The position numbers were made by a program, and so were the translations under genes. The notes below the pieces were generated by a model, which saw only the letters and a list, made by a program, of their open reading frames with translations, did not search any database and was not told where the DNA came from. 64,000 nt of DNA from Vibrio sp. DW001. Its GTDB lineage: Bacteria > Pseudomonadota > Gammaproteobacteria > Enterobacterales > Vibrionaceae. This document shows positions 31,801-64,000 of the stretch, piece by piece; position 1 is the stretch's first letter; each line of letters opens with the position of its first letter. The stretch covers positions 2,108,001 through 2,172,000 of the forward strand of contig NZ_CP091975.1 of the NCBI RefSeq assembly GCF_029016285.1. Reading direction: 5' to 3'.

Positions 31801-31838
31801 GAAAACAATCGCTAGGATTGGGCAATCCTAGCGATTGT
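31801..31838 (-). terminator. Rho-independent terminator of the Clp-FtsH fusion gene
   Basis: Perfect 16-bp arms ACAATCGCTAGGATTG and CAATCCTAGCGATTGT are separated by two bases. On the minus strand the second arm runs into TTTTC. It lies 28 bases past the stop of the 1307-residue protein. Confidence 0.85.
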
Positions 31839-31865: not shown

Positions 31866-34800
31866 TCAGCGTGTTAAAGAAAAAAGTAATTGTTCGATTT
31901 CTTCCCCCAATAGTGACTCTTTTTCATACAACTTATTTGCTACTGAGTCTAAAGAAGATCGATGTTCAGTTAGCCTCTTTTCTACTGAGTTTTCTGCTTT
32001 TATTATCCATTGCTGTACCGCGGTTTGGGCGTTTAACAGCAATTCACTCTCTTCGTATTTGGTGAGCATTCCAACGTTTACCGGGCCAATTGAAGGCTCG
32101 AGTCCGCCTTCGTATATAGCGTGCATCGCTAAATTCGTTGCCTTACTTATATCATTGGATGCGCCTGAACTGATTTCATCTGCTTTTGCAGAAAAAAGCT
32201 TTTCAGCGACTCTTCCCGCCAATAACACCTCTAACCGATTCATGATACGAGCGACCGAATAACCTTCATACTCCTCTTCTGCTCGAGTCGCGACAAAACC
32301 CAACGCCTGATCCCGCGGTTCAATCGTGACAAAGTCAATCTCTTGTTTAGGGAACAACAGCGATGAAACAAGAAGGTGCCCAGCTTCATGATAGGCTGTA
32401 CGCTGTTTCTCACGCTCGCTTAATACAATATTCTCACTTGGCGATCCGTAGGACACTCGCACCATGGTTTTTTTGAGCGCTTCAACCGTCAATGGATTAT
32501 TTTCACCCACCACTTGATAAATTGCTTCTCTAAATACTTGGTCGATTTGAGCGGAAGACATCCCTCTTGATGATGCAACCAAGTCATTTAAGTCTGCGGT
32601 GACAAACTCAACGTTATGCCTTGCCGAAAACTTAGTAAAGAACTGTTCTCGTGCATTGCGATTAGGTAAATCACAAAAAATAGTTTCGTCAAATCGTCCT
32701 GGGCGGACAATAGCACTGTCTAACAACTGTGGGTGGTTTGTTGCCGCCATCACAAATACCGCATCATCAACTGACACAAACCCATCCATTTCTGAAAGTA
32801 AAGCATTGACGGTTAGGTTGCGATCGCGGTCGGCGCCTTGTTCACTGTCAGAACGACGGGATGCAATGGCGTCAATCTCATCAATAAACACCATCGACGG
32901 AGCGTATTTTCTTGCCGTAGCAAACAACTTTTTAATATTTTGTGTCGTCCCACCAGAACTAGAAGATGACAACTCAGAAGCTGAAACCGCAAAAAATGGC
33001 AGTCCACTCTCCCCTGCCACGGCTTTCGCTAAAAGCGTCTTGCCCGTTCCGGGAGGCCCTGCAAACAGGAAACCACTTGGGATAGGCACACCAAAATGGC
33101 TCAGTTTTTCCGGTGTTTTAAGCCAACTAATGACGTCTATCAACCGTTTTTTTGCTCTCTCCAATCCAATGACGTCATCTAATTTGATCGTCGGTAGGCT
33201 CATCTTAAACAAGTCGTTTGCTCGCAAGTCATCCGTTTGTACTACCTGGTTCACTGATTGACGGTGAAATAAAACATTAAAGCCCTGCTCTGACGGGGTG
33301 ACGGAACAGTGATAGCCCAATGCCTCCCTGCGTCTTGTCATATTGGATAAATCGTGTTCTATCGCCAAATAGTATTGTATTCGTTCTATCATTGAGGGAA
33401 ATGAATGTTCAAATTTTGACAACTCAAGACTAAAATGTTCTCTCACATCATGAGACAGACTAACCGAGTCATCTTGTTCGTCTTCATTCACTATACGATA
33501 GGTAAAGATAGGAAGCTTACTGTGTTTATCTAACTCATCCGAAAGAAAATACAATAACGAACTGTGGCTATTTTCTATCGTATCAATATCAATAAGTAGC
33601 GCGTCTGGAAGGTGTTTTTCTATGGCGCTTTTTATCTTATCTTTATCACTGCAAAGAGAAACATCATTCTTCATACTGGTACAATTAAGCAGTTCAAAAA
33701 CTCTCGAGTCATTATCTAACAGCAGTAGTTTGCTATGAGAATGTGGCTGTCCGTGTTCTTCATTGTCGACCTGAACTTCAAACACCATCTTGTCGTGAGG
33801 AAACTGTTCAAAAAATGGCGTCGCCTTATTCAGGATTTGCGACTGAACTTTTGCTGAAACGCCCTTTAACCCTCGAACCGAAATGTCCGGCGCCATTGTT
33901 TTTAGCAAGAATCCGGCAAAGTTATCAGGCCAGCCAAAGGTAAGTTGCGGGTCAGGCATTTCTTTTTGTTCTAGTTCACGGTCGGCCAAACGCAAAAGAT
34001 GGTTAATCTTGAGTGATGAGAAAACAATGGGGTAACCCTTCGCTAATCGGTTAACAAATTCTGGTGACAATTGCGTTTTACTCGACGGATTTTTAGAGCT
34101 GCGCAAAATGTCAAAGATACTAATAGAACGATTCTGTGGGTTATTCGCTATAATATCTTGGCCAAGGTTGGTCGTAAATATAATGATACATTGGCTAAAA
34201 TCCACCACTTCTTGACTGGTTTGATCTTTAGCGAGTCCACTGTCTAATATCGACAACAGCGACTGAATGACTGTGCTGTGCGCTTTCTCTATTTCATCAA
34301 ACAACAGTATTTGTCTCGGTTGCGCCCTAACAACATGGGTCAACATACCTAAGCTAGCGTCTACATATTGAATCCCAGTTCCAAATAGCTTTAAGCCATC
34401 ACGACTGTCTGCATAGTGCTCCATATTAAATACGTTGAATTCATAGCCGGTTTTTTCGTATTCGTTTAACTCGCTCAATAACTGAGAAGCCAGAAATGTT
34501 TTTCCGACGCCTGATGGGCCAACAAACGTATAAATAGTGCGCGGTCCCTGTTGGGAATCAATACTCGACGTCAAATATCCTTGGCATAAACTGTTTATCG
34601 CACTTTCCTGACCAATCACTTTCTTACTCAGCTTTCGTTTTATACCTTGGCTAGATAAGGATCTAAAAACCAGATTATTTTTTCTTCTGTTATTGAACTC
34701 TATATAGCTGACATCGTCATTGTTACTGAGCATTAATTGGTCAACAAATGCCCCTGTACCCATTTTGTTATCGGTAAAAGCGTTCGCGAAGCAGTGTTGG

Positions 34801-35789
34801 ACATAAGAAGAGAGCTTCAGTTTTGAAACACATTTCTTCGCGACTTGATACCAAGTAGAAGAAGGATCGCCAAAACTGCGACTCTCTGAAAAACGAAACA
34901 GGTTTGAACGCAGTGCGTACACCTTCTCACTAAACATCAATTGATAGCTTTGGCATTGAAAGTTCGAAGCAAGTTTATCTAATATGGCAGTTTCATGAAT
35001 AAGCGCAGCCAGTATCGTCGCTTCCGTCACCTTAAGTTCTAATGCCGCCTCTTTCTCCAAATCTTCAATTGTTTTATCCGAATGCTGAGATAGGTATTCG
35101 GCCGTGGCGATAACGGCAATTTCTTCAATGAAATTCTTTCCTATGTTATCCATCATTGGATAACTTTCTGCTAGTGCAAAAGGGAGAAGAGGTTTCGATT
35201 TATTCGACCTATGGTCATTCGTGTCATAGGTAATTGATTCGTAAGAAGTTGGCTGATTCGACATAGATTGCTCCAATGGTGATTCATCTAACGCAGTTTG
35301 ATTATGAAGATCATTCAAATCGACATCAGACACATTGCTCACCTGTTTTTCAATGGTTAGAAAGTCAAAATCCGATTCAATATGTAACCTATGTTCTTGT
35401 TCATAGTTGACAAACTTCTCTCTAACTTGAGTACAAAACGTTGAGACATCATAGTTCAAGTTATTGTCATCAGATGATGCAATAAGGTTAAAATGATCAG
35501 ATATCAGCGTTGTACCACCCGCCTCTTTAATCGCAGTAATAATTTTTTCTTCATCCAAAATATCGATATTTATCGCCTCAACGAAACACAATCCTTCCTT
35601 ATTAACCACAAGGTCATAGTTCAACATTGTCGACAAAAGACGTGGATCGTTAATTAATTTGTCTATGGCAACGAGTACAATGGGTAAGAGAGATTTACTG
35701 CTCGCTAAAAAGGTCGTCTCGAGTGGATTACCATTCCAAAAAATATGATTTTGGTTAAAGAAAGCCTTCACGAGATTATATTTATTCAT
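31866..35789 (-). CDS. Fused ClpB-like AAA+ / receiver-like / FtsH-like AAA+ metalloprotease (1307 residues)
   Basis: A soluble chain with two different AAA+ motors and a protease. Residues 1-385 have no recognised domain. Module 1 (about 386-660) is ClpA/ClpB D2-like: Walker A GPSGVGKT (424-431), Walker B DEIEKAH (498-504), pore-loop Tyr475, Arg581 in the FVNRL finger and sensor-2 Arg639. Residues 686-810 look like a receiver: KLLLLDNDSR, then PDALLIDID with Asp734/Asp736 at receiver spacing from Asp692. Module 2 (about 868-1300) is FtsH-like: Walker A GPPGTGKT (911-918), Walker B FIDEID, RPGRFD, zinc site HEAGH (1134-1138) and third-ligand Asp1213. FtsH's membrane anchor is absent, and its pore aromatic is replaced by Ser944-Ser945-Gly946. 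Probably an ATP-driven unfoldase-protease. The divergent neighbours may be partners. Confidence 0.93.
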   Translation of the reverse strand: MNKYNLVKAFFNQNHIFWNGNPLETTFLASSKSLLPIVLVAIDKLINDPRLLSTMLNYDLVVNKEGLCFVEAINIDILDEEKIITAIKEAGGTTLISDHFNLIASSDDNNLNYDVSTFCTQVREKFVNYEQEHRLHIESDFDFLTIEKQVSNVSDVDLNDLHNQTALDESPLEQSMSNQPTSYESITYDTNDHRSNKSKPLLPFALAESYPMMDNIGKNFIEEIAVIATAEYLSQHSDKTIEDLEKEAALELKVTEATILAALIHETAILDKLASNFQCQSYQLMFSEKVYALRSNLFRFSESRSFGDPSSTWYQVAKKCVSKLKLSSYVQHCFANAFTDNKMGTGAFVDQLMLSNNDDVSYIEFNNRRKNNLVFRSLSSQGIKRKLSKKVIGQESAINSLCQGYLTSSIDSQQGPRTIYTFVGPSGVGKTFLASQLLSELNEYEKTGYEFNVFNMEHYADSRDGLKLFGTGIQYVDASLGMLTHVVRAQPRQILLFDEIEKAHSTVIQSLLSILDSGLAKDQTSQEVVDFSQCIIIFTTNLGQDIIANNPQNRSISIFDILRSSKNPSSKTQLSPEFVNRLAKGYPIVFSSLKINHLLRLADRELEQKEMPDPQLTFGWPDNFAGFLLKTMAPDISVRGLKGVSAKVQSQILNKATPFFEQFPHDKMVFEVQVDNEEHGQPHSHSKLLLLDNDSRVFELLNCTSMKNDVSLCSDKDKIKSAIEKHLPDALLIDIDTIENSHSSLLYFLSDELDKHSKLPIFTYRIVNEDEQDDSVSLSHDVREHFSLELSKFEHSFPSMIERIQYYLAIEHDLSNMTRRREALGYHCSVTPSEQGFNVLFHRQSVNQVVQTDDLRANDLFKMSLPTIKLDDVIGLERAKKRLIDVISWLKTPEKLSHFGVPIPSGFLFAGPPGTGKTLLAKAVAGESGLPFFAVSASELSSSSSGGTTQNIKKLFATARKYAPSMVFIDEIDAIASRRSDSEQGADRDRNLTVNALLSEMDGFVSVDDAVFVMAATNHPQLLDSAIVRPGRFDETIFCDLPNRNAREQFFTKFSARHNVEFVTADLNDLVASSRGMSSAQIDQVFREAIYQVVGENNPLTVEALKKTMVRVSYGSPSENIVLSEREKQRTAYHEAGHLLVSSLLFPKQEIDFVTIEPRDQALGFVATRAEEEYEGYSVARIMNRLEVLLAGRVAEKLFSAKADEISSGASNDISKATNLAMHAIYEGGLEPSIGPVNVGMLTKYEESELLLNAQTAVQQWIIKAENSVEKRLTEHRSSLDSVANKLYEKESLLGEEIEQLLFSLTR

Positions 35790-35968
35790 TAATGAGTCCT
35801 AGCGCTGGATGATTAAGGTTTTAACACGATGAAAGAGTGTAATCTGAATTGAATTTCAAGCGTAATGCGGTGTAGATAATTAGTTTATCCAGTAGCTCAT
35901 TAGGCATCACCCCGTCACTGGACTTGATGGCTTTAACGTTCATCTTACTTGTTCTCACTTTATACAAC

Positions 35969-36032
35969 TATACGGTATAAATCCCAACAATAACATGATG
36001 AAAAAATTACAAAAATTTATTTTAACCGTATA
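35969..36032. promoter_or_regulatory. Paired inverted half-sites in the divergent promoter region
   Basis: TATACGGT at 35969 and its exact complement ACCGTATA at 36025 face each other with centres 56 bases apart, between the fusion protease gene and the membrane protein gene. The first is itself near-palindromic (TATACGGTATA). They could bind one regulator that controls both directions. The rest of the 308-base gap shows nothing further. Confidence 0.3.
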
Positions 36033-36097
36033 TGGTTTTGATTGGGAAACTACCCTATAATTCGCGAATATAATAAAATACACAGAAAAGTGCATAG

Positions 36098-37729
36098 ATG
36101 AAATTTCTTACAATTAGTTTATTGGTTGGCTTATTTTTCGCTCTCCTTGGTTTTAAGAAGAACAAACCTCGCTTACAAAATATCGGTGTAAATGTTGCGG
36201 CCTTGATTGTTATTTATGTTGTCGCCTCAATGGCAGGCCCAGCACGTTACACCATTGATCTAGAACAATCACCGGTAGTTATTGACAATAAATCCTATCT
36301 TGTCGCGTGGAAAATTAATCGTGTACTTCCATTTGAATGGCTGGCAGTGGCCAAGTATGTCGACCATGATACAAAAACGGGTGGTATTGATCAGTACAAG
36401 AGAATACCGGAAAAGCAACGAAGAGAATTAAAACAAAGCTACCAAGGTGAGGGACTATTCACTCAATATTTAATATTTATTTTGTTCACTGCTTGGATCA
36501 TTGTTTATAGAAAAAAAATAAAACGACGCCCTGTAAGTATCCATCTATCAACCCCGACAACAACGCAAGGGAAAATGAATAAACAGGCCATCAATGATTG
36601 CACCAGTTTGGTCGTACTAAATGAATGGATTGATACAATACAGAAAAAACCATTTTATCGGTTTTATTATAAGAAAAGTCGATTAGCGCTGTGCCACACG
36701 AGAAAAATATCCCTTCAAAAAGAACTCTCACAGGCATTCTATGCCATTGCCAAAAGCATCCACATTCGAGCTAATACGTCTTCCGGTGGAACTTTCGATA
36801 ACAACAGCGAAAAAGGTTACCTACCACTTTGGGTCGCAAAAATGTTACTTAAAGGTGAATATGAATTCGGTATCGATATCGAATTGAAGGCTGAAGGACC
36901 TCACCCTAAGTTAGAACACCTGACAACATACGGCCGAAATGTTAAAAAATCAAACTCCGAAGAAAAAACCCATACCCTTGTTTGGCAAGACGATAGACCA
37001 ACGGAAAGTATCAAGAAGACGATTGAAAAGCCACTCATCGACAGTATTGAAAGTTCGCTAAACGCTATTTTACCTAGAGGTTTGGTCACATTTTCTAAGG
37101 ACAGTACCACTCGAATAAAACTGTCTATTTCATCTGTCGATTATACGGATAATGCTGATAATATCGTGCAATTTGCCTTAGGGGAGAAATACTACCTTTT
37201 CGCAACCCCGTCTTATCAACTTTCTACCAACATTCTTGGTTCTGGATTTTTGTTAAGCTCGAAGTCAGTACCATTGCAGAATCCTCAAATTACTGATATT
37301 TCAAACAAGGCATTAACGTCAGAACCAAAAATAAAGATGCCAAAGCCAAAAGAAAACAAAATACCAAGCTTCTGCACCAACATAGTAAAAGTAAAAATAA
37401 TCTCTTCTGTAATCGAAACCTTATTTATTCCTTTACCTAGTAGTGGAGTAAAAACCTCGATGGCCGCGGCACGCAAGATTGATGAGTTATATACAGAACT
37501 GGCAAACGACGTGCAGTCTGCGGTATTAGATGAACTCACAAGTGAAGCGATGGACATCGCTATACAGAACATGATAGAGAACGACCCGGTGATGTTTGTT
37601 TCATTACTAGACAGCGTAAGTAGCGAACTATTATCTCTGGGCATTGAGCAAGAGCTACTCAGTGAAATGGCAAGCTCCATTATGGCGGAAGTCGCCGCAA
37701 TGGCAATTACAGGTTTAATAGAGGATTAA
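36098..37729 (+). CDS. Membrane-anchored protein of unknown family beside the Clp-FtsH fusion
   Basis: A 543-residue protein. Hydrophobic segments lie at about 2-19, 30-47 and 120-138, the last followed by RKKIKRRP, so most of the chain (140-543) should be cytosolic. Residues 47-118 would form a small periplasmic loop. The cytosolic part has no motif I recognise. Its C-terminal 100 residues are helical and acidic (LYTELANDVQSAVLDELTSE). It is transcribed divergently from the fused protease, with the PEGA-like gene 3 bases downstream. It may anchor the protease to the membrane or be a substrate receptor; this is inferred only from position. Confidence 0.75.
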   Translation: MKFLTISLLVGLFFALLGFKKNKPRLQNIGVNVAALIVIYVVASMAGPARYTIDLEQSPVVIDNKSYLVAWKINRVLPFEWLAVAKYVDHDTKTGGIDQYKRIPEKQRRELKQSYQGEGLFTQYLIFILFTAWIIVYRKKIKRRPVSIHLSTPTTTQGKMNKQAINDCTSLVVLNEWIDTIQKKPFYRFYYKKSRLALCHTRKISLQKELSQAFYAIAKSIHIRANTSSGGTFDNNSEKGYLPLWVAKMLLKGEYEFGIDIELKAEGPHPKLEHLTTYGRNVKKSNSEEKTHTLVWQDDRPTESIKKTIEKPLIDSIESSLNAILPRGLVTFSKDSTTRIKLSISSVDYTDNADNIVQFALGEKYYLFATPSYQLSTNILGSGFLLSSKSVPLQNPQITDISNKALTSEPKIKMPKPKENKIPSFCTNIVKVKIISSVIETLFIPLPSSGVKTSMAAARKIDELYTELANDVQSAVLDELTSEAMDIAIQNMIENDPVMFVSLLDSVSSELLSLGIEQELLSEMASSIMAEVAAMAITGLIED

Positions 37730-37732
37730 CAG

Positions 37733-38380
37733 ATGATCAGACTATTTACGTTATTATTAAGCTTGGTCATTTCAAGTAACGCGATGGCAAGTTCAGGAAT
37801 CACTGGCACCGTTTATCGGTATCTTAAAGAAGAGCTTTTCGGAACGGTCACTCACGAATCTGTTGGTTTTTTCGGATCATTAGATAAATTTGTAAAGAAA
37901 AATGACGTCCGTTTTGCTGATGCAGATAACAGCGTTCCAATTAAATTTACCGACTTAGGACAATACGACTTAGGTTTATATTTCCCAAATAAAGGTCATG
38001 TTTATCTCAGCAATTATGACAATATCAAACTGCCAGCTAAGTACGTCGCGGTCACTTTCAAAGATAAAAAGGGTAAAAAAGCGCTCTATCGTTATGTGAA
38101 CATCCCAAAGACTGATGAACCCGTTATCATTTCGGCTTTACCTACCGTCACGAATCAGCAAAAACTCAAAAAACAGTTCCCTTTAAAGGTCTTTACTTAC
38201 CCTAGCAATGCCATCGTTAAAATAATGAATATCACGCCAAAATACAAAGAAGGAATGATACTCAGGGATGGCAAATATATCATTCAAGTAAGCAAAAAAG
38301 GGTATGCCACCTATCGTAAAAAACTAAACCTATCATGGAATGAACCTAATGTTCATGTTGCCTTAGCAAAAAAATCTTAA
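37733..38380 (+). CDS. Exported protein with PEGA-like C-terminal domain
   Basis: A 215-residue protein with signal peptide MIRLFTLLLSLVISSNAMA. Residues about 145-212 fit a PEGA-type beta domain: VFTYPSNAIVKIMN, then EGMILRDGKYIIQVSKKGY and a closing VHVAL strand. The N-terminal part has beta-rich segments (YDLGLYFPNKGHVYLSNYD). The ribosome site AGAGGA lies in the end of the upstream gene, and the 3-base gap indicates an operon. It is probably periplasmic, an envelope partner of the membrane protein before it. A terminator follows at 38420. Confidence 0.75.
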   Translation: MIRLFTLLLSLVISSNAMASSGITGTVYRYLKEELFGTVTHESVGFFGSLDKFVKKNDVRFADADNSVPIKFTDLGQYDLGLYFPNKGHVYLSNYDNIKLPAKYVAVTFKDKKGKKALYRYVNIPKTDEPVIISALPTVTNQQKLKKQFPLKVFTYPSNAIVKIMNITPKYKEGMILRDGKYIIQVSKKGYATYRKKLNLSWNEPNVHVALAKKS

Positions 38381-55966: not shown

Positions 55967-58900
55967 ATGAATATGAAGAATAAAGGTAAAAATACAATTG
56001 ATTCAGGTGTGCGTACCAAGAAACAACTTAACGTATCAACAGTGCAGCGACGAGGAAAAAACAAGAAAAAAAAAGTAAGATTATTCTCCACGCTCAATGT
56101 TAATGTGCCGATCCTACAACAATTGATATTAATTTTGCCATCACTCGCGCGAGCTTCTGAAAATGAAGTGCTCACTAGCACTAGTGAGCATTCAGTCGTT
56201 CCATCAATATCTGACGATACTGATGTCACAACACCCGCTAACACGTTAGATAATACAGCCAATGATACCGCTTCAGCTCAGCACGAGACTTCTCATCACG
56301 TCACCGAGCAAGTTAAGAGTGAAGCAACAGCGAAACCAGCCTCATCCACGGCTCACTCTTCGCATCACTTGGCAGAGCATTCTCACCCTCAAGTACACCA
56401 TATTCCTGCAACGACTATTGCTTCACTAAACTCGGTCTCGGCACCTCACGACACGCAGTCACCACTAACTAATGCACCTCAGCCGCCAATTCACGCAGTA
56501 GACCCAATTGTATTCAAAACAGAAACGATACAAGGTATTTATGGCAGCCTCAAAGTGGATGCGAATGGCGGGTATACATTTACCCTTACCCCAAATTCGC
56601 CGGAATACATTCTGCTGCAAAACCATCAAACAGGAACCGATAGCTTTACGCTTCACCTTTCAAATGGTGCTAAGGTAATTGTTCAAGTACCCGTTGCAGG
56701 TAAGGAAGATACGCCGGCGATTTTTGGTGATTTGTCAGGCGCGGTCACCGAAGACAAACAGGTTAACTCTCAAGGCTTCCTGACCACCAACGGAAAAATA
56801 GATGTTCTCGATCCTGACCAAAATGAAAGTGGGCTTCAAGCTGAAACCCTTGTTGGAAAATTCGGTGTTTTTACCATTGATAAACAAGGTCACTGGCAGT
56901 ACAACGTTAATAACTCACAATCTACAATTCAAGCACTTACTAACCCAGATCACGCGATAGAAAGCTTTACCGTCCATACCATCGATGGCACTCCACAAAC
57001 ACTGCAGATGGTAATATGTGGAACCGATGACAATGCAGTGATCACAGGGAAGGATTCTGGTTTAATCATTGAAGATGGTCACATTCAGGCAATGGGACAA
57101 CTTAATGTAACCGATGCTGATTCAGGACAAAGCCATTTTCAAGCGGGTGATTTGGTTGGCTTGTTTGGCAATCTCCACCTTACCGAAGGAGGCTCTTGGA
57201 GCTACGATTTAGACAATAACAACCCGCAAGTGCAAGCCTTATCTAAAGGGAAAACCGCTACTGATACCATTACTGTGCACTCTGTAGATGGCACTCCTCA
57301 TCAAATTGTCATTAACATCAATGGAGCAAATGACAAAGCAATGATCGGAGGTTCGTCATCTGGCATTGTTAAAGAAACCCTCCAGCAAAGCACCAGCGGC
57401 ACACTGACTATTTCTGATATCGACACTAACGAAGCGCACTTCTCTAACACCGATATTCCTGGCGCGCTAGGAACTCTGCACCTAAACGACAATGGCACAT
57501 GGACTTATTATTTAGATAACACTAACCCAACCGTTCAGGCGTTAGGCAACGGCTCAACAACAACCGATACAATAACGATTCACTCTGCTGATGGTACACC
57601 GCATCAAGTATCCATTACGATCAATGGAACAAACAATACTGCAACTATCACGGATACAGAAACTAGTAGTGTTGTAAGAGGTGTCACCGAAGACCGAGGC
57701 TACATAGACCCCCATTATCAACTGCATTATGACGGTCAGCTAAATATTCAAGACCCCGATGTGGGTGAAGCACAATTTGACTCAAATATTGGTCCACAAA
57801 CCATTCAAGGTATTGGCTATGACACCAAATTAGGTGGGCACATATTGCTTATGCGAGATGGCCATTACACCTACACACTAGACAATCGTAATATCCAAAA
57901 CCTTGCCGAGGGTGAAGTAAAACAAGACTCAGTTGTCATTCGATCTGTTGATGGAACAACACACACTATAGAACTATCAGTCCATGGCACAAACGATAAA
58001 CCAACTATTGCTGCGCAATCGCACTCGGTTACCGAAGATGGGCAATTACTCCAAGGTCAAATGGTCGGCACAGATATCGATCATGGTGCCCAGTTAACTT
58101 ATTCAGTAGCAAATTCTGTAGATGGATTGACCTTAAATAAAGACGGTAGCTACAGCTTTGATCCTTCGAATAGTACCTACCAACATCTGGCAGATAAACA
58201 AACTCAAACCCTTACGATTCCAGTCACAGTCACTGATGAGCACAACAGCAGCTCAACAGAAAACCTGACGATTACTATTACTGGTACTAGTGATGCCGCC
58301 ATTATTGGTGGTGTGGATACGGGTTCTGTCATTGAAAAAACAGCGGGTGATAATATGTCACCCGATTTTGCTCACCCGGGGATAGCAACACTGGGAAATA
58401 GTGTTTTATATGCCGATGGTCAATTAACAGTGATTGACCCTGACACGGGGGAGCAAGGTTTTGCTGCTCATACTAATGCTTATAACTATCACGGTACTTA
58501 CGGTGATTTAATTCTAAACACGGATGGCAGTTGGCATTACGTTGCTGACGCAGGCAGTGTCAGTCATATTGGTGGAAGACCAACAACCAGAGGGACGGCT
58601 ATCGACCAACTTGGTGAAGGTGAAATATTAACTGACGCCATCACTGTCCACTCTATAGATGGCACTACGCACGATATTGTAATTACCATAAACGGTAGCA
58701 ATGACCGTCCCTATTGCTCTTCAGAAGTACAACTAAATTCAGGGAAAGAAGACTTAACTCAGACCATCACAACCAGTGAACTGCTTTCGAATAGCGTAGA
58801 TGTTGATGCAAACGATGCCGGTAAACTTTCTGTCGCTAACCTTCATGCCGATCATGGTTCAATACGGGATAATCACGACGGTACTTTCACTTTTACTCCC

Positions 58901-61900
58901 CACCATAATTACAACGGTAACATCCATTTTACCTATGATGTCGTCGATGCACATAGTGGCACCACTCATACTGGTGCAAATACAACGATTACTGGTACTC
59001 CAGATCAAGCAATTATTACTGAGGTGACAACAGGAAGCGTGACTGAAGATGGCACGCATGCCACTCACAACAACGGCATCACTACAGAGCTGGCAAATGG
59101 ACAACTTCAAGTCATTGACCCCGACAGCGGTGAAAATAAATTCCAATACAGTCAGTTTGGTGAAACCTCTATTCACGATCCATTTGGTGGCATGTTGCGA
59201 ATCGACAGCGCCGGAAATTGGGGTTATAGCGTTGACAACGCGGCTCTACAACACCTTGATCAAGGACAGACTGAAACGGTGGTGTATCGTGTTCATAGTT
59301 ATGATGGGACTGCTTACGATCTGCATATTGATGTCATCGGAACCAACGACGTTCCAACGGTGAATAAAGTCGTTCTCAGCAACGGAACAGAAGATACACA
59401 TTATCAAATGCAGGCAAGTCAATTTGGGTTCACCGATGTCGACACCGGAGACACGTTGCACTCGATTTCAATTACAGAGCTACCACCAGCGGCACAAGGT
59501 AAGTTTGTTCTTGACGGGCATGACATCTCATCAGGTCAGAGCATTGCCACCGCAGACATCAGTAAACTTCAATTCGTCCCCGCGCAAGATTTCAATGGTG
59601 ATGTTCAGTTTAAGTACACCGTCAATGATGGTCATGTAGACTCACAGAAAGCGACGAATACTCTTCACATAGATGCCGTTAGCGACGCCGCAAAAATTAC
59701 AGGGACAGATACTGGTGATGTGCATGAAGGACACACTTTTACGGCGCCAGACGGCAGTATGTCTGGTTCGAGGGTGAACGATCGATCGCCCGATCATCAG
59801 CATCACAATACTGGCAAATTATGGAATGATCAGATCCATACCAAGGGCCACCTTAATATCCACGATGCCGATAGTGGTGAAGCCCACGCCCAAAATGGTA
59901 TTTACCACGGAAATTATGGTCAGGTGATATTGCAAGAAAACGGTGATTGGAGCTATTACGCTTCAATAGGCCAAGATTCAACGGGTAGAGCAATTGATAA
60001 ACTCGGTCAGGGACAAAACCTAACCGATACAGTCACAATCAAGTCAGCGGACGGTACAACTCATAACATTGTTATCACAATTCATGGCAGTAATGACCGC
60101 CCGTATTGTTCATCAGAAGTACAACTTAACACCGGCACAGAAGATACCCGCCAAACCATCACTATCGCACAATTGCTGCAAAATACTGTCGATGTCGATA
60201 ACAACGATGCTGGGCTACTTACTATAGAAAATTTGCATGCTGATCATGGTTCAATTGCAATTAATTCAGATGGTAGCTTTTCATTTACACCGGAGAAAAA
60301 TTACAACGGTAATGTCCACTTTTCATATGATGTTAGGGATGCACATGGTGGAGTGACCCATACAGGAGCAATCACCTCACTAGGCGCGATCAACGATAAC
60401 CCTGATAATGTTCCTATTGTTGATTCTGTAACAGAAGACACAGATACGCACCATACTATAAATTTACTTGCAGGTGCCACTGATGTTGATGGTGATGTCT
60501 TATCTATTAGTCAGATACAGGCTTCATTTGAAGGCAGTACTGGCAAGTTACCTCAAGGTGTCATAATAGCGAGCGATGGTCATTCGTTGATCATTGATAG
60601 CCATGCTCAAGTATTTCAGCACCTAGGAGATGGTGAGAAATCCGATGTCGTTGTCCATTACATGATTGATGATAATCATGGTGGGCAAACCCCTGCCATT
60701 GCCACCATAACCATGGTCGGCACAGACGATAAAGCCACGCTTGCTTCCAACGTTATTCAGATGACAGAAACACAAGCACTTAATAGCGCACAACACGGCT
60801 ATGGTGGCAGATTACAATTAGTCGATCCAGATACTGGTGATAATACCCAGTTTGTATTTAGTGGACAATACATAGGGCAAGGGTATGCCCCTGGTGATCT
60901 AACTGTTTGGCCTGATGGTTCATACCAATTTAGATTACAAGGCGCATTAAACCGCCACGCTGATGACCTTGTTGCAAGTTTACATGCTGGCGAATCGAAA
61001 GAATTCCCTTATGAGATAAAAACGTCAGATGGGCAAACTCTGACGGTGATGGTTAAAGTAACCGGTGAAGATAGCAACGCGAGTATTCATGTATCGATGC
61101 CAAATTTATTGCCTGCTAATCAATCTGTTATTGAAGAACATTTTGTTCCAGCGAGCACCACGAACCTCTATGCTGGCGGGCGTTTACAAGTGATGGACCC
61201 TGACCATGATCAATCTTATCTACAAGCGGAAACCGTCAATACTGCACACCATGGACAGTTCAAAATCAGCGCTAATGGCAGATGGAACTACACCATTGAT
61301 AACTCCATAGATGAAGTACAAAAACTCGGTGCCGGTGAATCATTTACCGAAACTCACACTGTTCATTCCTTAGATGGTACTGCCAGCCAACTGCTCACCG
61401 TAACCGTTCAGGGAACCAACGATGCACCAGTAGTTTCAGCGCAAGTTAAATTAGCACCAGGAATAGAAGATACCGATATTCAGCTAAACAAGTCCGATCT
61501 TCTTTCAAATGCTACAGACATCGATCACAACGACATAGGGCACTTAAACATAACCAACTTAGTCGCTGATCACGGCGTCATTGTTGATAACAAAGATGGG
61601 ACATTTAACTTCCACCCCGATACTAACTATAACGGGCAGGTGCATTTTTCTTATGACGTCATCGATGGACATAGCGGTGTAGCACACACAGGCGCAAGTA
61701 CCACATTAACAGCAGTCAATGATACCGCTGTATTTTCAGTAAACGATACCGGATCGGTAAAAGAGGATGTCCACGTTCAAGGTGACTCTCAACATACTGT
61801 GGCAGTATCGGGAGTACTAATTGTTTCCGACCCTGACTCAGGGGAAAGTGAATTCGTCGCCAACCGAAATGTACATGCGGTGAGTGACCAATTTGGCGGT

Positions 61901-64000
61901 GATTTGAGTATTGGCCGAGCCGGCGACTGGACTTACTCGGTTCCGAACAACAATTTAAATAGACTTGCTGAAGGCGAAAAACATCAAGTTACATATGAAG
62001 TGGTTTCTCGCGGAGGAGATAAACACCAAATAGTCATAACCGTCGTTGGTACTAATGATGACCCTATACTATCCGTTACCCAAACCACCCCGACAACGGG
62101 AACCCTCACTGACACCGATGTTGACGTTAAAGATACACATACTTTCTCTGTCGTCAGTTCAACAGGGCAATTTGGTTCGCTCTCTGTCGATCCGGATTCC
62201 GGTACCTATGTGTACACGGCAAACTCTTCGGTAGCAGGGATGACTTATAACTCAGCTACACACACGTATCACGGAACCGATGTATTTGAAGTAAAGGTGG
62301 CTGACAATCATGGTGGCGAATCATCGAAGTTCATTACTTTTGATACCAATGGTCATGTTTCCGTTGTCCCCGGACAACAACCAACGATTTCAACAACGGT
62401 GCCTGTTAATCCGCTGATTACTACAACTCAACCAAGCTTACCTACTGGAACAAACACGCCACCAAACAATGGAGTTACAGTAGATTTAGCAACACCGAAT
62501 GATACAGGTAAATCAGATACGGATAACGTCACCAAAGAGACAACGCCAACAATAACGGGACACACTGACATTCCCTATTCACTGGTCACTATTTACGATG
62601 GTTCCACGCCAGTTGGACACGCAGTATCTGACACATCGGGTCAATACAGTGCAGTGGTCAGCAACTTAACGGATGGCGCTCATAATCTATCTGCCAAAGC
62701 ATTGGCTCCTTCATCAGTGCAACCTGCAACATCGTCACTACTTTCTGTACATGTTGATACTGTGGTTGCGCCGCTTACCATTGGATTAACCCATGATACG
62801 GGAAGTGATAACTCCGATTTAATCACCAGTGATGGTGCACTAACTATTGGCGGACAAGAAGCAGGCGCAACGGTTGAGTATTCCACTGACAACGGGCATA
62901 CATGGACATCGAGCTTTACGCCACAACAAGGTTCAAATACCGTTAGTATGAGACAAACTGACACAGCAGGAAATGTGTCGACCAATACTTCACTGACTTT
63001 CACCCTCGACAATACAATTACCGCGCCGACTGTCTCATTGCGCAACGACACTGGGCCACACTCCGTCAACACCCCAGACTTAATCACTAAAGACTCTCAG
63101 CTTTCAATTCAAACGGAGGCGGGCGCAAAAGTAGAGTATTCAAATGATGGCGGACACACTTGGACTGCCGTATTTAACCCAGTAGAAGGTGTAAACAACC
63201 TGCAGGTAAGACAAACGGATATCGCAGGCAATTTATCTCCAGCGACTTACTTTAGTTTTACCTTAGATACGAGCCCTGGCACGGTGACTGTGAATCCGAT
63301 ATCGCAAGATAATGCGCTAAATGCTGCTGAGAATAATCAACCGCTAGTGATAACAGGAACAACCTCCAACATCGCCCCTGGTGATGTCGTGTATGTTGTC
63401 GTTGGTAATAATCATTTTTATGACGCGACCGTAAAATCGGATGGTTCATGGTCACTGACCCTTAGTGCATCTGTCCACCAAAACATCATGGCGTCCGATC
63501 TCGACTACCCAATACAAGTAGGAACCGTAGATACTGCTGGCAATTCAACGCCTCGTATTTCAACTCATTTATTGGTCGATACACAGAACCCTCTTCCACA
63601 TATAACCGTCGATTCAGTTACACAAGATAACGTGCTTAATGCCCTTGAATCGGGTCAAGGCATTCCGATAACAGGGACGGTGACTGGCGATTATCAGGTA
63701 GGAGATACAGTAAGCCTGAAAATAAACGGGGCGAATATTCTGTCTCTCACGGGCACTATTGACGTTAGCGGACACTTCTCAATTCCAGTTGATGGCAGAG
63801 TGTTGGAGCATGCTAATATTCATACTAGTTATGCAAGTGGTCAGGCTGCACCAATACACTCTATTGAAGCAACAATACAAACTACCGATGCGGTCGGAAA
63901 TGTGGGGAGTGCAACCACAGGTTCACAAGTTTTCACCGTTGATACGCAAATACATGTCGCTATTCAGACCGATCCAATTACCGCTGATAATGTAATTAAC
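55967..64000 (+). CDS. Giant VCBS/cadherin/Ig-like repeat adhesin, 5' part (2678 codons in window)
   Basis: A surface adhesin open to the window end; spot checks near 58979 and 63899 agree with the frame from 55967. The N-terminus is basic (TVQRRGKNKKKKVRLF), then hydrophobic (PILQQLILILPSLARASE), possibly an unusual export signal. A His/Ser/Thr-rich linker runs to about 56500. About ten VCBS repeats with DPDxGE, GxWxYxLDN and HSxDGTPHxIxIxINGxND motifs alternate with cadherin-like domains up to about 62350. Ig-like repeats of the large-adhesin type follow (VEYSTDNGHTWT, RQTDTAGNVS). No RTX calcium repeats or C-terminal secretion signal are in view, so type I secretion cannot be confirmed. 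No LapA-type retention module is seen. Confidence 0.9.
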   Translation, partial: MNMKNKGKNTIDSGVRTKKQLNVSTVQRRGKNKKKKVRLFSTLNVNVPILQQLILILPSLARASENEVLTSTSEHSVVPSISDDTDVTTPANTLDNTANDTASAQHETSHHVTEQVKSEATAKPASSTAHSSHHLAEHSHPQVHHIPATTIASLNSVSAPHDTQSPLTNAPQPPIHAVDPIVFKTETIQGIYGSLKVDANGGYTFTLTPNSPEYILLQNHQTGTDSFTLHLSNGAKVIVQVPVAGKEDTPAIFGDLSGAVTEDKQVNSQGFLTTNGKIDVLDPDQNESGLQAETLVGKFGVFTIDKQGHWQYNVNNSQSTIQALTNPDHAIESFTVHTIDGTPQTLQMVICGTDDNAVITGKDSGLIIEDGHIQAMGQLNVTDADSGQSHFQAGDLVGLFGNLHLTEGGSWSYDLDNNNPQVQALSKGKTATDTITVHSVDGTPHQIVININGANDKAMIGGSSSGIVKETLQQSTSGTLTISDIDTNEAHFSNTDIPGALGTLHLNDNGTWTYYLDNTNPTVQALGNGSTTTDTITIHSADGTPHQVSITINGTNNTATITDTETSSVVRGVTEDRGYIDPHYQLHYDGQLNIQDPDVGEAQFDSNIGPQTIQGIGYDTKLGGHILLMRDGHYTYTLDNRNIQNLAEGEVKQDSVVIRSVDGTTHTIELSVHGTNDKPTIAAQSHSVTEDGQLLQGQMVGTDIDHGAQLTYSVANSVDGLTLNKDGSYSFDPSNSTYQHLADKQTQTLTIPVTVTDEHNSSSTENLTITITGTSDAAIIGGVDTGSVIEKTAGDNMSPDFAHPGIATLGNSVLYADGQLTVIDPDTGEQGFAAHTNAYNYHGTYGDLILNTDGSWHYVADAGSVSHIGGRPTTRGTAIDQLGEGEILTDAITVHSIDGTTHDIVITINGSNDRPYCSSEVQLNSGKEDLTQTITTSELLSNSVDVDANDAGKLSVANLHADHGSIRDNHDGTFTFTPHHNYNGNIHFTYDVVDAHSGTTHTGANTTITGTPDQAIITEVTTGSVTEDGTHATHNNGITTELANGQLQVIDPDSGENKFQYSQFGETSIHDPFGGMLRIDSAGNWGYSVDNAALQHLDQGQTETVVYRVHSYDGTAYDLHIDVIGTNDVPTVNKVVLSNGTEDTHYQMQASQFGFTDVDTGDTLHSISITELPPAAQGKFVLDGHDISSGQSIATADISKLQFVPAQDFNGDVQFKYTVNDGHVDSQKATNTLHIDAVSDAAKITGTDTGDVHEGHTFTAPDGSMSGSRVNDRSPDHQHHNTGKLWNDQIHTKGHLNIHDADSGEAHAQNGIYHGNYGQVILQENGDWSYYASIGQDSTGRAIDKLGQGQNLTDTVTIKSADGTTHNIVITIHGSNDRPYCSSEVQLNTGTEDTRQTITIAQLLQNTVDVDNNDAGLLTIENLHADHGSIAINSDGSFSFTPEKNYNGNVHFSYDVRDAHGGVTHTGAITSLGAINDNPDNVPIVDSVTEDTDTHHTINLLAGATDVDGDVLSISQIQASFEGSTGKLPQGVIIASDGHSLIIDSHAQVFQHLGDGEKSDVVVHYMIDDNHGGQTPAIATITMVGTDDKATLASNVIQMTETQALNSAQHGYGGRLQLVDPDTGDNTQFVFSGQYIGQGYAPGDLTVWPDGSYQFRLQGALNRHADDLVASLHAGESKEFPYEIKTSDGQTLTVMVKVTGEDSNASIHVSMPNLLPANQSVIEEHFVPASTTNLYAGGRLQVMDPDHDQSYLQAETVNTAHHGQFKISANGRWNYTIDNSIDEVQKLGAGESFTETHTVHSLDGTASQLLTVTVQGTNDAPVVSAQVKLAPGIEDTDIQLNKSDLLSNATDIDHNDIGHLNITNLVADHGVIVDNKDGTFNFHPDTNYNGQVHFSYDVIDGHSGVAHTGASTTLTAVNDTAVFSVNDTGSVKEDVHVQGDSQHTVAVSGVLIVSDPDSGESEFVANRNVHAVSDQFGGDLSIGRAGDWTYSVPNNNLNRLAEGEKHQVTYEVVSRGGDKHQIVITVVGTNDDPILSVTQTTPTTGTLTDTDVDVKDTHTFSVVSSTGQFGSLSVDPDSGTYVYTANSSVAGMTYNSATHTYHGTDVFEVKVADNHGGESSKFITFDTNGHVSVVPGQQPTISTTVPVNPLITTTQPSLPTGTNTPPNNGVTVDLATPNDTGKSDTDNVTKETTPTITGHTDIPYSLVTIYDGSTPVGHAVSDTSGQYSAVVSNLTDGAHNLSAKALAPSSVQPATSSLLSVHVDTVVAPLTIGLTHDTGSDNSDLITSDGALTIGGQEAGATVEYSTDNGHTWTSSFTPQQGSNTVSMRQTDTAGNVSTNTSLTFTLDNTITAPTVSLRNDTGPHSVNTPDLITKDSQLSIQTEAGAKVEYSNDGGHTWTAVFNPVEGVNNLQVRQTDIAGNLSPATYFSFTLDTSPGTVTVNPISQDNALNAAENNQPLVITGTTSNIAPGDVVYVVVGNNHFYDATVKSDGSWSLTLSASVHQNIMASDLDYPIQVGTVDTAGNSTPRISTHLLVDTQNPLPHITVDSVTQDNVLNALESGQGIPITGTVTGDYQVGDTVSLKINGANILSLTGTIDVSGHFSIPVDGRVLEHANIHTSYASGQAAPIHSIEATIQTTDAVGNVGSATTGSQVFTVDTQIHVAIQTDPITADNVIN
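58298..59005 (+). repeat. Adhesin internal duplication, unit 1
   Basis: A VCBS plus cadherin-like pair of about 708 bases, closely similar to 59690-60395. Shared features are the unusual SNDRPYCSSEVQLN junction with its Cys, NLHADHGSI, and YNGN-HF-YDV-DAH. Confidence 0.7.
59690..60395 (+). repeat. Adhesin internal duplication, unit 2
   Basis: The second copy of the VCBS plus cadherin-like pair, offset about 1390 bases from unit 1. It carries GSNDRPYCSSEVQLN and NLHADHGSI at matching places. A third, more diverged cadherin unit (LVADHGVIVDNKDGTFNFHP) is near 61420-61730. Confidence 0.7.

Follow-up and report, generated by a model that had tools for sequence, protein, structure and literature searches.

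A Vibrio gene joins a Clp-type AAA+ module, an FtsH-type AAA+ module and an M41 zinc protease in one chain

A gene of Vibrio sp. DW001 encodes, in one polypeptide and in this order, an AAA+ module of the Clp type, a degenerate receiver-like domain, an AAA+ module of the FtsH type and an M41 zinc protease domain. It occupies 31866..35789 on the minus strand of a 64,000-nucleotide stretch of contig NZ_CP091975.1 (hereafter the window, whose numbering we use; all parts of the fusion given below lie on the same strand) and forms one uninterrupted, ATG-started open reading frame of 1,307 codons (1,307 amino acids, aa), with a 95% identical single-frame copy in a second genome, G022. A hidden Markov model scan placed three Pfam families above their cut-offs in this frame: AAA_2 (PF07724; 118 bits over the protein, best stretch at residues 420-583), AAA (PF00004; 170.6 bits, residues 908-1040) and Peptidase_M41 (PF01434; 112.3 bits against a cut-off of 29.9, residues 1122-1301). 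Pfam, motifs and alignment thus agree with the first-pass annotation of this DNA, which had proposed that two AAA+ modules of different clades and an M41 protease share a chain. It had also called the chain soluble, and no transmembrane segment is evident by 19-residue Kyte-Doolittle hydropathy: the peak mean is 1.54 in the 1,307-aa protein and at most 1.65 in the 12 fusions described below, compared with 2.35 in the ordinary FtsH of the same genome. That FtsH is encoded elsewhere by a 683-codon open frame, so the fusion is an extra protein.

The motifs expected of each module are present and invariant in the eight closest long members of the family, which were aligned and to which all counts out of eight refer. 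Module 1 (residues 372-670; 33780..34676) has the AAA_2 fold, Walker A and B motifs, arginine finger and sensor 2 of the Clp D2 type. Its Walker A motif (residues 424-431; 34497..34520) reads GxSGxGKT in 8/8, with K430/T431 and sensor 1 also invariant, and the same holds for D498/E499 of Walker B (residues 494-499; 34293..34310), the arginine finger R581 (34047..34049) and the sensor 2 residue R639 (33873..33875). Module 2 (residues 867-1120; 32430..33191) is of the FtsH type by PF00004 and by comparison with FtsH sequences and structures; K917/T918 of Walker A (residues 911-918; 33036..33059), D970/E971 of Walker B (residues 966-971; 32877..32894), the RxxR fingers R1029/R1032 and sensor 1 are all 8/8. 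In the M41 domain (residues 1121-1307; 31869..32429; PF01434), H1134, E1135 and H1138 of the HEAGH motif (residues 1134-1138; 32376..32390) and the third zinc ligand D1213 (32151..32153) are equally invariant, so that the fusion has what an FtsH-type protease should show in this half: AAA followed by M41, together with the Walker motifs, HEXXH and the third zinc ligand. The two Walker pairs, the module-1 arginine finger and sensor 2, HEAGH and the third zinc ligand had all been described as intact, and they are; their functions we take to be those known for the respective families.

Module 1 is a single D2-type AAA+ module, about equally near to ClpA, ClpB and ClpC. Among the NCBIfam models it matches the second ring of ClpA at 133.5 bits, far under the full-length cut-off; the ClpB model TIGR03346 reaches 118.5 bits in one stretch only (cut-off 1232.1), and the ClpG and ClpK models, with cut-offs of 1900, find nothing beyond module 1 (96.7 and 91.5 bits). 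None of these models matched a first Clp or ClpB ring in the 1,307-aa protein. The earlier description of a ClpB-like disaggregase was therefore overstated, and for this protein the label 'disaggregase' is unproven.

The pore loops set the two modules apart. According to a review (PMC9020784), the phenylalanine of the FtsH FVG loop binds substrate and slides with it into the pore. FVG is present in 23/23 sampled standalone FtsHs (three archaeal AAA proteins in the loop alignment are non-FtsH and are excluded from this count) and is replaced or deleted in 11/12 fusions. At this position of module 2 (residues 938-951; 32937..32978), alignment with the standalone FtsHs gives SSG in DW001 and G022, HSG or HAG in G540 and G363, and HHG in G1132 and G664, and the loop is shortened by three residues in G1107 and G607 and by six in G337, G443 and G1405. 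The pore-loop aromatic of module 1, Y475 (34365..34367), is Y or F in all 12 fusions and in a module-1 piece from a further genome, G021. An FtsH-type ring that has kept its ATPase motifs and lost its usual grip, beside a Clp-type ring that has kept its aromatic in an altered loop, is the strongest clue to mechanism. The loss in module 2 is new relative to the first-pass annotation and, since the FVG gripping loop is gone, the mechanism likely differs from the one read there. A protease half without its gripping loop is probably fed by the motor to which it is joined.

The survey for the same domain order found 12 genomes, that of DW001 and 11 others, with a single frame holding both modules: eight fusions with the receiver-like domain, one (G886) with an untyped middle region and three shorter ones without the receiver-like domain (G337, G443 and G1405; 915-930 aa counted from the first start codon). 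AAA_2, AAA and M41 were all present in the six that were scanned with Pfam (G886, G337, G443, G1405, G607 and G664), and the same modules were judged by alignment in G022, G363, G540, G1132 and G1107, the G540 fusion being cut at its 5' side by a contig end. Full-length fusions occur in 2/148 genomes of the genus (DW001 and G022) and matches in 3/329 of the family sample (these two and the G021 fragment), 5/394 of the order sample (DW001, G363, G540, G664 and G607) and, with a single-sequence query, 1/369 of the class sample (DW001). Searches of genera around the matches gave 2/24 (G363, G540) and 4/99 (G664, G1132, G1107, G607), and a profile of residues 200-866 gave 4/398 in the phylum sample, namely DW001 and the three shorter proteins. 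A further profile had 12 matches in 205 class genomes, where the fusions were those of DW001 and G886; the other ten loci have frames of 722-860 codons without HEXXH, among them the G729 match, which spans a TAG, and are left out of the fusion total. The samples overlap among searches, so we do not add the counts up to an overall rate.

The G021 fragment (L081:8122-9444) is a 440-aa piece, 52% identical over residues 208-622, with the module-1 Walker motifs; an FtsH half is absent within the 18.5 kb examined around it. A search of genome contigs gave 46 loci, mostly similar to residues 868-1302, and no open reading frame with both module patterns, some of the loci being short. With tblastn against 72,556 plasmid and 50,697 phage records, no place covered 80% of the long fusion or of one short fusion, and among the best 80 of 592 loci in viral contigs no open reading frame of at least 600 aa had both module motif patterns. 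One viral-collection contig (L122:5527-10350) matches both modules and was set aside as a fusion, being two adjacent genes, FtsH first and a ClpK-type gene after it, arranged as in heat-resistance islands; the contig is possibly host DNA.

The whole frame is under purifying selection. The ratio of non-synonymous to synonymous substitution rates (dN/dS) relative to G022 is 0.11 overall, 0.038 in module 2, 0.054 in the M41 domain, 0.085 in residues 671-822 (the receiver-like part) and 0.096 in module 1. Constraint is weakest over the N-terminal 371 residues (0.23 for residues 1-204 and 0.45, from few silent changes, for residues 205-371). Trees of the two modules are consistent with joint inheritance: in each, one branch splits the fusions from the sampled standalone proteins, with support of 100/100 in module 1 (37 rows, 13 of them fusion or fragment) and 99/98 in module 2 (35 rows, 12 fusion), and the ClpK and FtsH of heat-resistance islands fall among the standalone proteins. 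The references were chosen samples (24 Clp and 23 FtsH proteins, several of them near-copies), the root was placed at the midpoint, and the tree program warned of long branches meeting and of odd letter composition in G886 and G540. One supported branch per tree fits a single joining event, which would have been followed by joint inheritance and scattered transfer.

On balance we favour reading the fusion as a soluble double-ring AAA+ protease built from a single type of chain, with module 1 doing the pulling and module 2 serving as an ATP-dependent protease platform. A hexamer of such chains would have its Clp-type ring sitting coaxially on the FtsH-type ring, to which the M41 protease ring belongs. 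Substrate would be chosen by the N-terminal and helical domains; module 1, with its pore-loop aromatic and full set of ATPase motifs, would unfold and pull it; and module 2, with full ATPase motifs and its gripping loop lost, would form an ATP-dependent conduit and a gate to the zinc-protease chamber. The receiver-like domain, where present, may be a regulatory or docking insert between the rings. The hexamer, the stacking, the direction of threading, proteolysis and receiver-like regulation are what we infer from these features. A broader proposition, on which we stop just short of even confidence, is that the long and short forms make up a new AAA+ protease class, in which an unfoldase ring was joined, once, to an FtsH-type protease ring and the two then divided their labour. 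The protease ring would rely on the Clp-type ring for grip, and in most long forms the receiver-like domain might act as a control point.

Several observations weigh against the double-ring reading. The oligomer, the activity and the placement of the rings are predictions only, and the fold models are of moderate quality (pLDDT 72.0 and pTM 0.44; pLDDT 72.3 and pTM 0.61), with FtsH structures matching the C-terminal model at TM-scores of only about 0.25-0.41. The module-1 loop reads QYVD in the 1,307-aa protein, compared with GY[VEI]G in 24/24 sampled standalone Clps, so that the supposed pulling loop is itself altered. The loss in module 2 is not universal, since G886 alone retains an aromatic there (WQG, in FVTMWQG); the H944 of four relatives might still contact substrate; and L035, one of the three archaeal AAA proteins set aside, also has no aromatic. 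The G021 piece, finally, may be a relic of decay or a module 1 used alone.

The remaining parts of the chain are less readily typed. Residues 1-145 (35355..35789) are predicted to fold as a mixed alpha/beta domain without a family match, followed by a low-confidence linker (residues 146-204; 35178..35354; pLDDT below 50 at 146-202). A profile of residues 1-380 had no match among PDB sequences up to E 10, and the same region had no match over any Pfam cut-off in eight members. Residues 205-371 (34677..35177) form helices in the fold model where a Clp N-domain would sit. A Clp_N domain, suspected there from the helix pattern, is unsupported: hhalign against Clp_N gave E 0.16, about the level of the controls (0.19-0.46), and residues 205-371 have no Clp_N match in Pfam. 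The fold comparison of the N-terminal-side model covers mainly residues 264-584 and barely samples the more N-terminal part.

Between the two AAA+ modules, residues 684-822 (33324..33740) have the beta-alpha order of a receiver and a long last helix in the fold models. The first-pass annotation had seen a receiver-like domain here, an assignment that is weaker than it was put there. D734 is conserved in 8/8, T or S at position 763 in 8/8 and the acidic pair D692 and D694 in 6/8, and the top two matches of the profile among PDB sequences are receivers (YycF, E 0.0045 and 0.0054), in a search that gave 18 matches up to E 10, some of them unrelated folds. The profile also aligned by hhalign with a response regulator encoded in the window (E 0.0031; reversed control 0.37), at a probability of only 10%. 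The canonical receiver lysine is not conserved across the eight long members, none of which has a receiver match in Pfam. The short subfamily does without this domain, which is thus not essential to the architecture; the beta-hairpin linker that follows (residues 823-866; 33192..33323), seen in fold models and alignment, is kept there. For the middle region of G886, a receiver-like reading is not claimed: hhalign gave E 0.044 at a probability of 1% against the receiver-like profile (reversed 0.70) and E 0.74 against the response regulator (reversed 0.30).

The gene may end its own transcript. A terminator-like stem-loop lies 27 nucleotides past the stop codon (31805..31838, minus strand; a 15-pair stem with a T-rich tail, z -6.2), consistent with such an end, and the upstream gene is divergently oriented. 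A promoter scan found five promoter-like sites, fewer than in shuffled sequence (mean 11.6). Between the divergent genes, at 35940-36060, near-palindromes around TATACGGTATA and ACCGTATATGGT might be operator sites. The divergent neighbour (36098..37729, plus strand) encodes a 543-aa protein with hydrophobic stretches near residues 1, 29 and 118 and no Pfam match, a candidate partner that is present in one (G022) of the 12 other fusion or fragment genomes searched. It is followed by a gene for a 215-aa protein (37733..38380, plus strand) with a weak PEGA match (19.7 bits; cut-off 20.8). At the end of the window, 55967-64000 holds a very long open frame of at least 2,678 codons that runs past the window.

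Conserved neighbours are shared within close pairs of fusions, and the surroundings differ otherwise. The LysR-type regulator, the 543-aa and 215-aa proteins and a DUF2339 membrane protein of the window recur beside the G022 copy; at a strict limit of E 1e-100 or better, the DUF2339 gene was found in 1/17 genomes, that of DW001. G607 and G1107 have five neighbours in common, and G337 and G443 two. The latter are companions of the short fusions: a 369/367-aa protein (46% identical between the two genomes) and a 452/485-aa protein (47% identical) whose N-terminal part includes a hydrophobic stretch. A distant form of the first, of 188 aa, occurs in G1405 (27% over 115 aa; weak YbjN match); a 439-aa gene of G1405 aligned with the 452/485-aa companions at 20% identity without a BLAST match, and kinship is not claimed. 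These companion genes (L112:10747-13214, L113:6221-8781 and L114:12457-13023) are divergent in L112 and L113 and downstream in L114, and have no match over any Pfam cut-off. A profile of the 543-aa neighbour did not match them, with two- and three-sequence profiles of little power. Flanking the G664 fusion are what we take, from their leading residues, to be molybdenum-cofactor-type genes. In L087:3-6875, the G363 fusion is followed immediately, on its own strand, by a 1,292-aa gene with DUF4062 and STAND-type NTPase matches; a 662-aa gene matching TrkA_N and another, of 343 aa, that lacks a Pfam match are in the same stretch, and together they resemble a conflict-type cluster. The G540 and G607 fusions have integrase-type genes within about 3 and 6 kb. 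Near the G886 fusion (L111:6525-14298) are genes for a trypsin-like peptidase, a vWA-FHA protein and an FHA-kinase; another gene there reads as kinase-WD40 from its sequence only.

These neighbourhood facts allow a role in proteostasis or in conflict alike, without deciding between them. A proteostasis enzyme that clears heat- or oxidation-damaged proteins, as a one-chain counterpart of the ClpG/ClpK and FtsH of transmissible heat-resistance islands, is a possibility that we hold in some doubt. The protein-homeostasis module of the transmissible locus of stress tolerance (tLST) holds both ClpG and FtsH, according to PMC8290217, and we found ftsH and a ClpK-type gene together on two plasmids of Alphaproteobacteria, on the viral-collection contig and on an Escherichia coli plasmid, where cls separates them. 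However, the island proteins group with standalone Clp and FtsH rather than with the fusions, the ClpG and ClpK models reach module 1 only, and none of the six scanned flanking genes of the window is a heat-shock gene.

It is unlikely, though worth weighing, that the fusion belongs to a biological-conflict system (phage defence or cell suicide), in which the N-terminal region would sense an invader or partner and the protease would degrade or activate an effector. AAA+ modules are found in such systems (PMC7159879), and the patchy spread of the family, the weak constraint on the N-terminal 371 residues, the STAND-type gene next to the G363 fusion, the integrase-type genes and the vWA-FHA, FHA-kinase and kinase-WD40-like genes near G886 would all suit this role. 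Yet 0/6 scanned flanking genes of the window is a recognised defence gene (two were also compared with PADLOC), and the PADLOC matches of the fusion itself are to the AAA domains of IetA, TRIP13, DolB and others and cover only the AAA parts of the fusion. Neighbours are common only to close pairs, and no phage or plasmid record covers 80% of the fusion.

We consider it improbable that module 2 and the M41 domain act non-processively, clipping one dedicated partner or serving as an assembly platform, with module 1 as the working remodeller. The pore-loop loss speaks for this, as do the companion proteins of the short subfamily. However, the Walker motifs, arginine fingers, HEXXH and the third zinc ligand are kept in 8/8 and dN/dS is lowest in module 2, as would be expected if both activities were required, and the 543-aa neighbour shows no relation to the short-subfamily companions in the shallow profiles available. 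That two genes were joined by an assembly or sequencing error, the refuter named in the first-pass annotation, or by a frameshift, has no evidence in its favour and practically no probability left, because the same order in one frame in independent genomes excludes chance or misassembly, no internal stop occurs and purifying selection extends over the whole frame.

Known AAA+ proteases have a motor ring and a protease in one chain (FtsH, Lon) or pair a Clp motor with a separate peptidase (ClpAP, ClpXP, ClpCP). If the double-ring reading is true, a chain of Clp ring, FtsH ring and zinc protease is a natural experiment in the coupling of two motors. It raises the questions of which ring pulls, whether the second ring needs to hydrolyse ATP and how substrate reaches an FtsH-type protease that is soluble, and the pore-loop loss gives a sharp, testable claim, namely that a ring may gate without gripping. 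For annotators, the fusion may define a family whose members probably go by generic names such as ATPase or FtsH. The remark in the first-pass annotation that no described system with this order was known has held: no description of the architecture turned up among the matches listed in the open-access literature, a body outside which most subscription papers lie.

Compared with the D2 ring of ClpA, ClpB and ClpC, which module 1 resembles, the fusion has no matched first Clp ring, an altered GYVG loop and a protease of its own in the chain. With FtsH it shares the order AAA then M41, the Walker motifs, RxxR fingers, HEXXH and the third aspartate; it differs in having no evident transmembrane segment or FVG, one ring more and some 860 additional residues at the N-terminal side. 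Its catalytic half is AAA plus M41, but membrane anchor, FVG and full-length score (359.3 bits with the NCBIfam model TIGR01241, under the cut-off of 600) all speak against calling the protein an FtsH. Nor is it a ClpB, judged by its single Clp-type ring and its score. The ClpG/ClpK and FtsH of the transmissible heat-resistance locus likewise bring the two activities together, side by side or nearly so, but as separate genes, with FVG intact in FtsH and with modules that cluster with standalone proteins. In the FtsH ternary conflict systems, MoxR and vWA genes accompany two FtsH-type domains, of which the first is inactive (PMC7159879). These systems too place two AAA+ domains, one of the FtsH type, in one chain, whereas the first module of the fusion is of the Clp type with its motifs intact, and MoxR or vWA genes were found in 0/6 scanned flanking genes. 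The Ycf2-FtsHi motor, which is among the fold matches of the fusion model, also contains an FtsH-derived ring; its protease site is lost, according to PMC9020784, whereas the corresponding motifs of the fusion are intact.

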